DNA of 64,000 nt from an archaeon (GTDB lineage Archaea > Iainarchaeota > Iainarchaeia > Iainarchaeales > DTGL01), in assembly GCA_029258755.1 (NCBI GenBank), contig JAPDKC010000010.1, forward strand, positions 62,001 to 126,000, in the 5' to 3' direction. The notes beneath the pieces are model-generated. The model was not told the origin of the DNA. It saw only the letters and a list, made by a program, of their open reading frames with translations, and did not search any database. Below, one piece after another: positions 1,899-61,572 of this stretch; positions within the stretch are counted from its first letter, which is position 1; each line of letters starts with the position of its first letter. The position numbers were made by a program, and so were the translations under genes.

Positions 1899-3111
1899 AT
1901 AAGCTTGCTAAGCCCTTCCCAATCAAGTAAATTGCTGCATACTCAGGCAGCACTGCTTCTTCATTTTCATAAGGGCCGAAGCTTTGATTGCCTAACCTAA
2001 ATCTTGGTGCTTTATTAATAAAAACCTTTATTTGTCTGTCTCCAAAGGCCAAAGCATGCTCCAAAGGCCTGAAATCAGCTAGCGCTTGCAAAGAAACAAT
2101 TTTTGCAATAAGCCCTGTGCTACCATGCAAGCTATTTGGAACGCGGATTATTTTGTACTTATCTATAGAGGTCTGCCTATCAATCTTTATAGATTCTTTT
2201 TGTTTTGCGTACTCAAGTAGGTTTCGCCAAAACTTTAAACTTGTTGCTCTAGAGCTAGCAATAGGTGGCAAGCGACCTTCATCTATCTTAGCAATAATTT
2301 TTTTCTTATTCTCATAAACTTCTCTTGCTTTGCTAAGCTTTATACCCCCGTAAAGCGCTATTTGATCAGGATTTGCTCTTAAGAGAAACTCTTTAAGGGT
2401 TTTTAGAATTCTGCTTAAAGGTGCCTTAACCTGCTTAGATTTTTCAAAAATAGGCACCGCTTGCGAAAAATCGATTGCAAGCTCAAAGTCAAAACCTGCA
2501 AGCGTTAGATAATCAATAAGTTCTGCTCTAGCGTTTTCGCTCAGAGTTCTTATGCGCTCACTCCTTATGTGCAAATGATAGCCAGCGTTTCCGGAAAAGT
2601 TTATGCTTATATCCTCTAAAATGCCGAGCTCCTCATCTAATACTTTTATTAATCTATTGAGCTGTTTTTTCGTTTCTGCAAGGCAGTTTTCGCATATGAA
2701 CTGATATTGTTCTGTGTCGCTGCCGCAGCTTGCACATTTTTTGGCAGTGCCTTTTCCATAGCTTTTGCAATTCTTGCAATACCAAAAATCATGCTTTTCC
2801 CTGCAATCAAGCTCAAGCTCATCGGCATCAAATTCATAAATTAGGTCAGCACCTAAAAACGACTTTTTTTCCATAGGCCTTGCGCTAGGATCTTTATAGT
2901 ATGCAGCAGAGTAAGAGATATAGAGCGGTGCTTCGCTTTTCAAAAATCTATTAAGCTCAGCTGTGCTGCTAAAGCTCATGTGCCTTTTAACAATCTTTTT
3001 ACCCCAATCACCTATGCCAAATTCCCTGCTTTCGATAGAAGGTACGCTAGCAATGCGGTGCTTAGCGTAGTATTCCTTAAATTTTCTCCTTATAAACTCT
3101 TGCTCATTCAC
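1891..3111 (-). CDS. priS: DNA primase small (catalytic) subunit PriS
   Basis: YEFDADELELDC, FSGNAGYHLHIRSE and KYKIIRVPNSLHGSTGL motifs of AEP primase; precedes priL. Confidence 0.95.
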   Translation of the reverse strand: MNEQEFIRRKFKEYYAKHRIASVPSIESREFGIGDWGKKIVKRHMSFSSTAELNRFLKSEAPLYISYSAAYYKDPSARPMEKKSFLGADLIYEFDADELELDCREKHDFWYCKNCKSYGKGTAKKCASCGSDTEQYQFICENCLAETKKQLNRLIKVLDEELGILEDISINFSGNAGYHLHIRSERIRTLSENARAELIDYLTLAGFDFELAIDFSQAVPIFEKSKQVKAPLSRILKTLKEFLLRANPDQIALYGGIKLSKAREVYENKKKIIAKIDEGRLPPIASSRATSLKFWRNLLEYAKQKESIKIDRQTSIDKYKIIRVPNSLHGSTGLIAKIVSLQALADFRPLEHALAFGDRQIKVFINKAPRFRLGNQSFGPYENEEAVLPEYAAIYLIGKGLASLCE

Positions 3112-4111
3112 GCTTTTTCACCCTGCTTTGGGATTTTGTAAGCTGCCTTCTATAGTACTGTATAGGATTTCGTACATTACAGTTAGCTATACAAAGCCCA
3201 TAGCTTTTCATCTTTTTGCAGGACGCAGGCGCATAGTTCTTTCCAGATTTTGCATGAACAATTCTGGCTACCTGATAGCGAGTTATCTTTTCGTTATAAT
3301 TTGGTGCATGTGTAAATGCTTCAATGATTTTTTCCTCAGGCACATTTATTGCATTGAGGAATGTCGCTAACACAAACCTTGCCATATGAGGAATGTTTTT
3401 GCCTGCTAGCAACTCTGAATATATTTTCTCTATGCACGGTGGCAAATAAGCTAAATTTGCTTTTATGCGCAGAGTTTTTTTGGCAAAACTTGTTGCTTGC
3501 GTCAAGGTTTCAAAAGCGAGTTCTTTTAGCTTTTTAGGCAAGCCCTCAGTATTGACCGGCATATTTTCCTTTGCGACCTGCGCTGCAAAGCCAGCAACAA
3601 ATTTTCTGAAGCGATTCTCATTTAGAAAAACTTGCCCTTTAGAAACGCTTTGATTTACAAGTTTTAGCGTATTTTCTTTTGCCTCGCACTTTAAAAAATC
3701 CAGGATTGGCACAGCCAACATGCCATTGGAATCTATCCTGAAGGAAATACCAAGATCTGCTGCAAGCTTATCCCAATCCTCAAAACTACTCATATGGTTT
3801 AGAGAGGTTTTGTAGATAGCGTCCGAGAAGTATTCGTAGTATTTAATATTATCCAGAAAGGAAAGCATTATTCTTACAAGAGGATATGCAAGAACCTCTA
3901 CCAAAAGATCGTCTTGGTAAGGGGTAAGAAAAGTAGGATATGGCTCGCGTTTTAATATTGCTAAAAGCTTATTTCTTGCATTATCCATGAGCTTTGAGTT
4001 TGCAACAACACTGTTCATATCTGGGTTTAGGGTTTTTACAATCCGCTTGGCTGTATTAGAAAAAGGATACCTGGCAGCAAAGCTTAGCTCCTCTATAGGA
4101 AAATCCGCCAT
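3104..4111 (-). CDS. priL: DNA primase large subunit PriL
   Basis: Conserved Cys set (LPPCIEKI ... APASCKKMKSYGLC ... NC) and YQVARIVH; overlaps priS by 8 nt. Confidence 0.92.
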   Translation of the reverse strand: MADFPIEELSFAARYPFSNTAKRIVKTLNPDMNSVVANSKLMDNARNKLLAILKREPYPTFLTPYQDDLLVEVLAYPLVRIMLSFLDNIKYYEYFSDAIYKTSLNHMSSFEDWDKLAADLGISFRIDSNGMLAVPILDFLKCEAKENTLKLVNQSVSKGQVFLNENRFRKFVAGFAAQVAKENMPVNTEGLPKKLKELAFETLTQATSFAKKTLRIKANLAYLPPCIEKIYSELLAGKNIPHMARFVLATFLNAINVPEEKIIEAFTHAPNYNEKITRYQVARIVHAKSGKNYAPASCKKMKSYGLCIANCNVRNPIQYYRRQLTKSQSRVKKRE

Positions 4112-35238: not shown

Positions 35239-36045
35239 TTACTGTAAAGCTTCTATCTCAAGATTTTCGCTAGGAAGCATGCTTATTATCTCATCTAGGC
35301 TAAGCGTTGTGTTGAGCTTTTTCTCTGCTATGCTCTTTATTTGCTTAGCGATGTCGCTTTTTTTCCTTGACCCTGGAATTATCTTGAAGCATATTAAAGC
35401 ATGCTTTTTTATCGCACTGCTCGGCCCAGAGATTATGCGATAATGTTCATTAAGCTTTTCAACACCTATTGCAAAATCCAATTGCACGTTCTTAAACCAT
35501 TCTCGCTTGCCGTAAATCATAAATGCACCTTTTGCAAGGGCTTCGCCAGTAGGCGCTTTCTTTGACACCTGCTCAGGCTTTACTGAATAAACATCTACAG
35601 CCGCTAAACCCTGCTTCCAGGCCTTGCTATAAGCAGCGGCAAAGATTGCTGCTTCTCTTTTTGTTTGTTCCGGAACCTCTTTACCAGAGGTTTTTACTAT
35701 GCAATGCGCGGCACCCTGAATATCTGCATGAAAGTAAAGATCTTCTGGTTCCATATAGCGCTTTATTAGAAGCTCGTTTGTCTTTGCATCTTTGCCAGCC
35801 AATACAAGGAAGCCGTCGCTTGAAAAAAACCAATGGAACTTTTCATACCATGCACGTGGTCTCTTTTTTAAGGGCTTCTTGGCTTGCTCTTCTTCTTTTT
35901 TCTTTTTAAGCTCTGCAATCTTTGCTTCAACCTCTTTTATTGCCTGCTCTATACGCTCTGCCTTCTTACTGGCTTTCTTGCTTTTTTCAAAATAAAGGCT
36001 TGCATTTCTATGCAAGCTTTGTGTCAGATCAAGCTCTATCTCCAT
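35239..36045 (-). CDS. NFACT-R domain protein (RqcH-like; coiled coil + NFACT-R only)
   Basis: LTQSLHRNASLYFEKSKKASKKAERIEQAIKE coiled coil, then DLYFHADIQGAAHCIVKTSGKEVPEQTKREAAIFAAAYSKAWKQGLAAVDVYSVKPEQVSKKAPTGEALAKGAFMIYGKREW. Confidence 0.9.
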   Translation of the reverse strand: MEIELDLTQSLHRNASLYFEKSKKASKKAERIEQAIKEVEAKIAELKKKKEEEQAKKPLKKRPRAWYEKFHWFFSSDGFLVLAGKDAKTNELLIKRYMEPEDLYFHADIQGAAHCIVKTSGKEVPEQTKREAAIFAAAYSKAWKQGLAAVDVYSVKPEQVSKKAPTGEALAKGAFMIYGKREWFKNVQLDFAIGVEKLNEHYRIISGPSSAIKKHALICFKIIPGSRKKSDIAKQIKSIAEKKLNTTLSLDEIISMLPSENLEIEALQ

Positions 36046-36046
36046 T

Positions 36047-36592
36047 TCAAAGCCTCTTCGAGCGTTTTATTATTTCTATTATTGATTTTGTTCTAGAAGC
36101 GCTTTTATAAACAGGTTCTGTGGTGAAAAAGATCTGCCTATCTCTTATGAAATCGTATATGCCCGGAACCTTTTCAAAGTAATGTTCTGCCATATGCTTT
36201 CTGTAGGATTCTACGTCCTTGTAAATATGCCTTGCGATCAAATTCCAGTTTCCTGAACCAAGCATACCAGAAAACCAGTACATATGCGGGTCCTTTGCGG
36301 CTTGCTCAAGAAATGCTTCCATAGCGCTTTTCCTTGAAAGGTCTGCCTGAAATAGTGTTGTTACCTCTAAGTTGTAGCCGAGAACCCTAAAGTTTATCTT
36401 CGGCCCATAGCCCTGAATAAGGCCTGCTTTTTCAAGGAAATCTAAGGAACTTATTATAGTGGCTTTATGGAAGCCAGTATATTGCTTTATCTGCCTTATA
36501 TTTGGCCTAACAGAGCTCTTTTTGAGCAATGCTTCTAAAACAGCAATTCTTATAGGATCTGTTATAGACATCTTACTTGGCAAGCATATCAC
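36047..36592 (-). CDS. Lrp/AsnC-like HTH transcriptional regulator; true start probably the internal MSITDP
   Basis: ITDPIRIAVLEALLKKSSVRPNIRQIKQYTGFHKATIISSLDFLEKAGLIQGYGPKINFRVLGY followed by a RAM-like domain. Confidence 0.75.
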   Translation of the reverse strand: MICLPSKMSITDPIRIAVLEALLKKSSVRPNIRQIKQYTGFHKATIISSLDFLEKAGLIQGYGPKINFRVLGYNLEVTTLFQADLSRKSAMEAFLEQAAKDPHMYWFSGMLGSGNWNLIARHIYKDVESYRKHMAEHYFEKVPGIYDFIRDRQIFFTTEPVYKSASRTKSIIEIIKRSKRL

Positions 36593-36666
36593 CTTTTAGA
36601 TGTACAAAAAGTTGTTTAAAAATTTATTTAAATATACCTTTTGGTCGCTAAAAGAGCAACAATTTC

Positions 36667-36676
36667 TTTATATAAG
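36667..36676 (+). promoter_or_regulatory. Putative archaeal TATA box (TTTATATAAG) upstream of the candidate ncRNA
   Basis: Direct reading; about 30 bp upstream of the presumed transcript start. Confidence 0.5.
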
Positions 36677-36696
36677 TTAGGAGAACAACATATATG

Positions 36697-36830
36697 TAAA
36701 AACTTGAAAGGAGGGTTGTAAAAAGGCGCGAACAGCTGAGGGGGCGAGGGGCGGCTCACCAAGCTGAAACTGGTTTCATTTGAGGCCCCTCAGGCCCCTT
36801 TAAAATGTTGCTTCCCCTTCCTTCTTATTT
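36697..36830 (+). ncRNA. Candidate structured ncRNA (GC-rich nested hairpin), boundaries approximate
   Basis: No ORF. 5-bp (36741-36745/36794-36798) + 7-bp (36746-36752/36785-36791) + 4-bp (36755-36758/36781-36784) + 5-bp (36765-36769/36774-36778) nested helix; TATA upstream; T-rich tract (tatttttcttct) downstream. Confidence 0.45.
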
Positions 36831-37643
36831 TTCTTCTGCTTGATTGCATGCAGAATTCAAATCTCTATAAAACCTTTCGAGTTCATTGAATGCTGTTCGA
36901 ATATTTCCATAACTTTCAGAGATTTCTTTTGTAGCAATATCCAAAGCAGCTGCTTCTTCTAGAATCTCTTTAGCGCTTCTTACAAGCTTGTTAGCGTCGC
37001 TTATTTTATCTTGTAGCATATCTAAGCTTTCACAAGCATTTTCTATTGAGATGCTACTTAAAAGTTCTCTAACTGCGGCATTAAAGGAACAGAGCTTGCC
37101 GAAAAGCAAAGCAGCTTGAGCTTTCTTCTTCGCTAGAGCTAAACCTTGTTCATCCAATTCAAACCGCGTTTGCTCAGCTGAAAACTTTTCGCTTGATTTA
37201 AGCATGAGGTTTATTTTCTTTGCTTGGTCTAAAAGTTCCTCAAGCTCTAAGGCAAGATGCTTTAATCTAAGTAATTTATTGCAATCGCTAGCCAAAAGCT
37301 TGTTGAAATCTTGCTCCGGCAATGTTTTGAAAAGGAAGTAAGCGTCCTTTGATTCGAACACTTCTATTTTTTTCTCTAAAAAATCTGCAAAAGCGGCATT
37401 AAGTTTGCGAAACTCTGTGTTTTCAATACCTTTTAGCTCTTCTTTTATAGAGGATAGTTTAGCTAATACCTCTTTTTTCTCTTTAATTGTAAGCTCCAGC
37501 GTCTTTGGTTCTTTGAGAAATTCTATATTGAGATCCTGCCAAAGGTCACGCTTTTGTTCCTCTTGCTTCGGTTGAATACATGCGGGAATAAACAAAAGGA
37601 GGAAAAGCATTGCTATAACTAAGCTATTCCTGTTGTTTAGCAT
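36825..37643 (-). CDS. Putative lipoprotein, coiled-coil rich
   Basis: Signal peptide LVIAMLFLLLFIPAC with lipobox-like Cys, then helical charged region. Confidence 0.6.
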   Translation of the reverse strand: MLNNRNSLVIAMLFLLLFIPACIQPKQEEQKRDLWQDLNIEFLKEPKTLELTIKEKKEVLAKLSSIKEELKGIENTEFRKLNAAFADFLEKKIEVFESKDAYFLFKTLPEQDFNKLLASDCNKLLRLKHLALELEELLDQAKKINLMLKSSEKFSAEQTRFELDEQGLALAKKKAQAALLFGKLCSFNAAVRELLSSISIENACESLDMLQDKISDANKLVRSAKEILEEAAALDIATKEISESYGNIRTAFNELERFYRDLNSACNQAEEK

Positions 37644-61463: not shown

Positions 61464-61572
61464 CGCCGGGAGTGGGATTCGAACCCACGCGTGCTTGCGC
61501 ACACCTGCTTGCTCGCTAATGAGCTTGCAAGAATCTCGAGGCAGGCGCGTTGGACCGCTCCGCCATCCCGGC
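61464..61572 (-). tRNA. trnS: tRNA-Ser(CGA), intron-containing
   Basis: Acceptor GCCGGGA/TCCCGGC, T-arm GTGGG-TTCGAAT-CCCAC, long variable arm GTGC-GCAA-GCAC, discriminator G73, anticodon stem CCTGC/GCAGG, loop CT-CGA-G|A with 25-nt intron at 61510-61534. Confidence 0.93.

Follow-up and report, generated by a model that had tools for sequence, protein, structure and literature searches.

In bacteria, a regulator gene and a small RNA gene may share one divergent promoter region, as in the pairs gcvA-gcvB and sgrR-sgrS, whose RNAs are Hfq-dependent antisense RNAs of mRNAs. DPANN archaea are mostly uncultured and have some of the smallest cellular genomes; we know of few stand-alone non-coding RNAs in them. 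Two small RNAs from other organisms act on the ribosome itself. In Staphylococcus aureus, SprF1 binds ribosomes by its purine-rich 5' end and competes with mRNA loading (PMC8938821). In Haloferax volcanii, Val-tRF attaches to the small subunit close to the mRNA channel and is a competitor of mRNA (PMC3544259, PMC8938821).

The RNA described here, from an archaeal genome of 1.21 Mb, resembles each of these in part. Like SprF1, it is a small RNA with a purine-rich 5' end. However, SprF1 is bacterial and doubles as an antitoxin, antisense to a toxin mRNA, whereas the new RNA is archaeal, has no toxin gene and is differently structured; ribosome binding has been reported for SprF1 and is only predicted for the new RNA. 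With Val-tRF it has in common that it is an archaeal small RNA (small-subunit binding being, again, merely predicted), but Val-tRF is a processed 26-nt fragment of a tRNA, while the new RNA, which has stems and conserved motifs, appears to come from a dedicated gene and a promoter of its own. The likeness to gcvA-gcvB and sgrR-sgrS is that a transcription-factor gene lies divergent from a small RNA gene; unlike gcvB and sgrS, the new RNA has no mRNA targets that have been shown, and no sequence relation to them is known. Finally, it joins RNase P RNA and SRP RNA as a stand-alone structured archaeal RNA of the same genomes, each encoded by a separate gene. The RNA family is new; the general kind to which it belongs, that of stand-alone regulatory or ribosome-associated RNAs, is known.

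Anatomy and homologues of a GC-rich element

The DNA analysed, which we call the window, is a stretch of 64,000 nucleotides (G000:C1:62001-126000). The original prediction, made from its letters alone, was of a GC-rich nested hairpin with a TATA box upstream and a T-rich tract downstream, and all three can be read in the sequence. The GC content of positions 36700-36799 is 57%, versus 23-48% in 100-base windows from 36000 to 36699. Four nested helices had been proposed. Two, GGGGC/GCCCC (36741-36745 with 36794-36798) and GAGGGGC/GCCCCTC (36746-36752 with 36785-36791, next to a 2-nt AG bulge at 36792-36793), together form a stem, P1, that is conserved and covaries in relatives. The two inner helices, CTCA/TGAG and TGAAA/TTTCA, are not conserved: in relatives GCTCACC is an invariant unpaired motif, and the conserved apical element is a hairpin of the form CCNN...NNGG, P2. 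The element begins further 5' than the hairpin, at GGAGGG. Judged by comparison of sequences, then, a larger predicted RNA of roughly 135 nt, with its own TATA box, has the hairpin at 36741-36798 as its 3' half; in relatives the part that runs from GGRGG through P1 is about 95 nt long. The ends of the RNA are inferred, the start from a distance of about 25 nt past the TATA box and the end from the T-rich tract. The parts of the locus are as follows.

36047..36592, - strand: Lrp/AsnC-type regulator gene, the divergent conserved neighbour (PDB profile matches, NCBIfam, synteny)
36667..36676, + strand: TATA box TTTATATAAG of the ncRNA (sequence; peak of TATA-like words in 66 homologues)
36695..36833, + strand: predicted ncRNA transcript, ~135-140 nt (homologous region matched by the covariance model)
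36710..36715, + strand: purine motif GGAGGG, a Shine-Dalgarno core without a start codon (alignments; predicted pairing with the 16S 3' end)
36741..36752, + strand: 5' strand of P1, GGGGC + GAGGGGC (fold; covariation in relatives)
36754..36760, + strand: invariant unpaired motif GCTCACC (identical in 64/66 of the member table)
36759..36773, + strand: apical mini-hairpin P2, CCA/TGG in the window (pairing counts in 66 members)
36785..36798, + strand: 3' strand of P1, GCCCCTC + AG bulge + GCCCC (fold; covariation in relatives)
36825..36835, + strand: T-rich tract, candidate 3' end (sequence only)

Folding of both strands had been suggested as a check. The 70-nt core has a fold energy of -33.1 kcal/mol and both strands do fold, with z-scores against single-sequence shuffles of -1.83 (+) and -2.23 (-). 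Such z-scores range overall from -1.3 to -2.2 and are not decisive. Since GC-rich shuffles fold almost equally well, folding alone is weak evidence, and the case rests on relatives.

A search with DNA showed that all four other genomes of the genus have similar sequence upstream of their Lrp-like gene. In 30 genomes the DNA preceding this gene was then compared, and a near-universal anatomy emerged: TATA box, purine block (GGAGGG or GGGGGGATCCAATCCTAA), A-rich linker, a stem of 10-14 bp with free sequence, and a loop starting with AGGCTCACC. A first covariance model, built on nine of these upstream regions, matches 29/30 (E<0.004). Of 75 genomes of the order, 61 have a match to the refined model, R2, at E<=0.01; the 12 further genomes of the class have none, and the searches of class and phylum cover the same 87 genomes. 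Weaker members occupy the equivalent position in another three genomes (L106, L107 and L108), and the covariance search shows the RNA to be absent from family f4. The window's genome has a single copy, as have nearly all carriers. When 84,980 named species were searched with an exact pattern, eight contigs matched. All are archaeal; GW2011_AR10 (CP010424) is one, two are records that carry the name Diapherotrites, and it is through these relatives that the window is assigned to Diapherotrites. Motif searches of viral contigs gave 43 and 13 matches; three of these motif-preselected sequences score on the model (E 0.003-0.04) and lack both the 5' motif and a clean P1, and we read them as chance. 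Literature searches found no paper on this RNA. That it is a previously uncatalogued family of the Diapherotrites order, present in nearly all members and usually once per genome, is well supported as far as genome sequences can support it.

It had been stated beforehand that absence of covariation in related genomes would count against an orphan structured RNA. Strong covariation was found. In an alignment of 71 matches, five of them weak ones on the opposite strand, 88.7% of the pairs in P1 are standard, and double-sided changes number 219 as against 72.6 in shuffles. The covariation score is 0.743, versus 0.284 when shuffled and 0.17-0.23 when slid, which is about threefold above the slid controls; none of 500 shuffles attains it. 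This alignment was fitted to P1 and is hence biased towards it. Alignment-free folds of individual members give the same stem in different letters, and the first set of 29 members agrees on the covariation. It is the shape of P1 that is conserved, not its sequence. Compensatory changes of this kind, beyond shuffled controls and spread across the order, meet the usual criterion for a structured ncRNA and support the original reading, with the reservation that transcription is unproven. Even with no expression data, we have very little doubt that this is a real, transcribed RNA family.

P2 lies outside the covariance model. At least four complementary pairs are possible there in 33/66 members, versus a mean of 2.7 in shuffles. 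Its family form is CCNN-GCUNAA-NNGG, and the pair sets are CCAA/UUGG, CCAG/CUGG, CCGA/UCGG, CCGU/ACGG, CCGC/GCGG, CCUA/UAGG and CUCA/UGAG. The motif GCUCACC is unpaired, apart from its CC, which is often paired within P2. By inspection, the only conserved blocks in the alignment are GGRGGG, which is GGAGGG in the window and GGRGGG in most members, GCTCACC and GCTNAA. The distance from the 5' motif to the loop varies from 35 to 74 nt, and in some members (L113, L115, L044) the 5' motif has diverged.

A few copies depart from the usual arrangement. In one genus second copies occur (L113:814-903 in G056; L115 in G037, reverse strand 1545-1633) with genes for a PRPP synthase on one side and an Lhr-type helicase on the other, and the f20 copies L109 and L110 are also upstream of an Lhr-type gene; these positions suggest an old second locus. 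The weak member L111 (G014, reverse strand 3052-3152) has no regulator gene adjoining; it follows, after 13 nt, a same-strand gene for an MFS-type transporter. L032 (G012), about 90-230 bases upstream of the Lrp-like gene, has kept the stem and lost the 5' motif, and its loop is enlarged to about 100 nt.

Neighbouring genes and known identities

The same Lrp/AsnC-type gene is the divergent neighbour in 56 of 66 members; three more (L106-L108) were taken from directly upstream of the Lrp-like gene and two are at contig ends. Family f20 is without this gene, and its members L109 and L110 are divergent from a different HTH regulator that, by eye, reads like Lrp. Among the 56 members with the Lrp/AsnC-type neighbour, there are 97-154 bp from the regulator's start to the GGRGG motif in all but one (195 bp). 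The product of the window's regulator gene has PDB profile matches to the Lrp/AsnC structures 8q90 and 1i1g, while its matches to NCBIfam models of Lrp are below the cut-offs. The expectation that the RNA has a plus-strand TATA promoter of its own was borne out to the extent that TATA-like words in the 66 members peak at -45 to -40 relative to the GGRGG motif; transcription from there remains unproven. A second peak at -90 to -75 is probably the regulator's own promoter. No consistent operator palindrome was found in the spacer between regulator and RNA. Judging by position only, the Lrp/AsnC-type regulator probably controls the RNA. Beside the regulator gene in the window, on the - strand at 35239-36045, is a gene whose product is an NFACT-type protein cut down to the RNA-binding domain; of the N-terminal region of NFACT it keeps a remnant only.

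The other neighbour is convergent with the RNA and is topA in most families and a lipoprotein gene in the window's genus. In the window this short lipoprotein-like gene, without a Pfam match, is at 36825-37643 on the - strand between topA and the RNA. The hairpin is thus placed just downstream of the stop codon of an opposite-strand lipoprotein or topA gene, and both strands fold, as would be expected of a (bidirectional) terminator between convergent transcripts; a passive GC island could also be imagined. Terminators, however, need no loop that is invariant in 64/66 members, no separate 5' motif and no TATA box, and a scan for intrinsic terminators finds none at the hairpin. The narrower alternative, that the element only ends the lipoprotein gene, fails since most relatives have topA adjoining instead of that gene and their unpaired motifs are still invariant. 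Because of these motifs a mere terminator is excluded, and as a full explanation this reading, refuted by conservation, keeps only a vanishing share of our belief; an additional role in termination remains possible.

The absence of a known identity, also part of the original prediction, was upheld: in Rfam 15 no family reaches the gathering threshold at the window element or at 20 homologous loci. In the window's genome RNase P RNA (RF00373; G000:C25:9698-9957, 148.7 bits) and SRP RNA (RF01857; G000:C30:4781-5053, 169.2 bits) each have a separate gene, so the new RNA is not a divergent form of either. Guide RNAs are recognized by RUGAUGA/CUGA boxes, or by a hairpin that has a guide pocket and is followed by a 3' ACA box. 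By inspection such boxes are not among the conserved blocks, and Rfam gives no match to box C/D or H/ACA RNAs at threshold. Elsewhere in the window, at 61464-61572 on the - strand, Rfam places a tRNA gene that ARAGORN in bacterial mode missed; since the Rfam span is 109 bases, this tRNA probably has an intron.

The 5' motif, the loop and their possible partners

A Shine-Dalgarno core following a short leader resembles the 5' end of an mRNA, and one could suppose that the RNA leads into a short peptide gene or acts as a riboswitch on a downstream gene. Yet no start codon occurs 4-12 nt past GGRGG in 44/56 members. In the other 12 the frames run for 1-44 codons and encode no common product, and the variable distance between motif and loop does not speak for a leader either. 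Moreover, a conserved same-strand gene downstream is lacking: in most members the RNA meets the 3' end of a convergent gene, topA or that of the lipoprotein. Since no same-strand gene follows in most members, we conclude that the RNA is not a leader or riboswitch and consider that explanation highly improbable. The solid fact about the 5' motif, on present alignments, is a conserved Shine-Dalgarno core without a gene behind it.

What could such a core pair with? Against its own dinucleotide shuffles, the 5' region is predicted to pair with the 16S tail at a mean z of -2.2; in controls, z is -0.1 to -0.8 for shuffled tails and 0.0 for the RNA's own loop. A pseudoknot between the 5' motif and the loop accordingly gives no signal (z 0.0). 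When 26 representatives were compared with 3202 windows, taken from AR10 16S and at random from the genome, the 16S 3' end came first with a mean of -17.9 kcal/mol, and the best 23S window is weaker at -15.6. The AR10 member pairs with the 16S tail more strongly than 99.7% of AR10 gene leaders, and the window's own member does better than 93% in the comparison with gene leaders. Different lineages pair the same 16S segment by different bases (GGGGGGAUCCAAUCC or GAGGUGGUU). Much of this pairing, however, comes from the GGRGG core alone. AR10 genomic sites sharing the GGAGGG core have a mean of -16.1 versus -17.0 for the RNA, with a median percentile of 0.36; only members of the GGGGGG type, few in number, stand out (percentile 0.05). 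Since same-core genomic sites score almost equally, no pairing past the core is demonstrated for most members, those of the window's genus among them; the predicted extension is supported for the GGGGGG type only and so for some lineages. That the RNA binds the 30S subunit through its 5' motif rests on predicted pairing, without binding data, and is a tentative idea that we stop short of calling probable.

The match of the 5' region to the mature 16S 3' end is also compatible with a scaffold or guide RNA in an RNP that binds a protein or the 16S precursor, for instance in maturation of the 16S 3' end, with the Shine-Dalgarno-like motif as a recognition or docking element. Protein-binding RNAs typically combine invariant unpaired motifs with stems of free sequence. 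The new RNA has no known archaeal RNP motif, though, Rfam has no match at threshold to box C/D, H/ACA or other families, and family f4 is viable without the RNA. We think this unlikely.

The loop offers yet another reading, a trans-acting antisense RNA whose GCUCACC pairs with mRNAs, for example with the Shine-Dalgarno word GGUGA, and which the divergent Lrp-type protein switches on, after the fashion of gcvA-gcvB or sgrR-sgrS. The divergent regulator gene at a near-constant distance fits such a role, and the loop's UCACC is complementary to GGUGA, a word that ranks among the most enriched ahead of AR10 gene starts (96 genes versus 11 in controls). But loop duplexes at predicted AR10 start regions are no better than inside genes (-8.38 vs -8.29), GGTGAG is not enriched upstream of AR10 starts, and the CC of the motif is often engaged in P2. 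By the criteria for regulator-divergent small RNAs, then, the divergent regulator is met (56/66) and seed complementarity to mRNA starts is not (AR10). We consider an antisense role distinctly unlikely. Pairing of the loop with rRNA was also considered; the best sites differ between AR10 and the window's genome, and for that reason the match is treated as chance.

A possible role in translation initiation

Our preferred reading, which remains tentative, is that of a stand-alone regulatory RNA, paired with an Lrp-type gene, that docks on the 30S subunit and tunes initiation. There are no expression data and the mechanism is inferred. The RNA would be transcribed from its own TATA promoter, back-to-back with the Lrp/AsnC-type gene that probably controls it. 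In the 30S subunit, its 5' strand would dock on the free 3' tail of the 16S rRNA as a ribosome-binding site does, with no gene to follow, and GCUCACC might be the point at which the P1/P2 hairpin holds a protein or some other ribosomal part. Once the Lrp-type regulator senses a change in nutrients or amino acids, the RNA may hold back or retune translation initiation. Docking on the anti-Shine-Dalgarno is inferred here by likeness to SprF1 and Val-tRF, which compete with mRNA.

A bolder form of the proposal can be made, in which an Lrp-controlled RNA serves throughout the order as a decoy ribosome-binding site, occupying anti-Shine-Dalgarno tails and tuning initiation globally with nutrient state. 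It is doubtful that this holds in full. To our knowledge, no gene-encoded translation regulator of the decoy kind has been described in archaea.

Whatever its mechanism, the RNA has been retained through about 18 families, at a near-fixed distance from the regulator and mostly in single copy, and so it must be useful. It is a new family for genome annotation and a testable candidate for control of translation at the RNA level in Diapherotrites cells.
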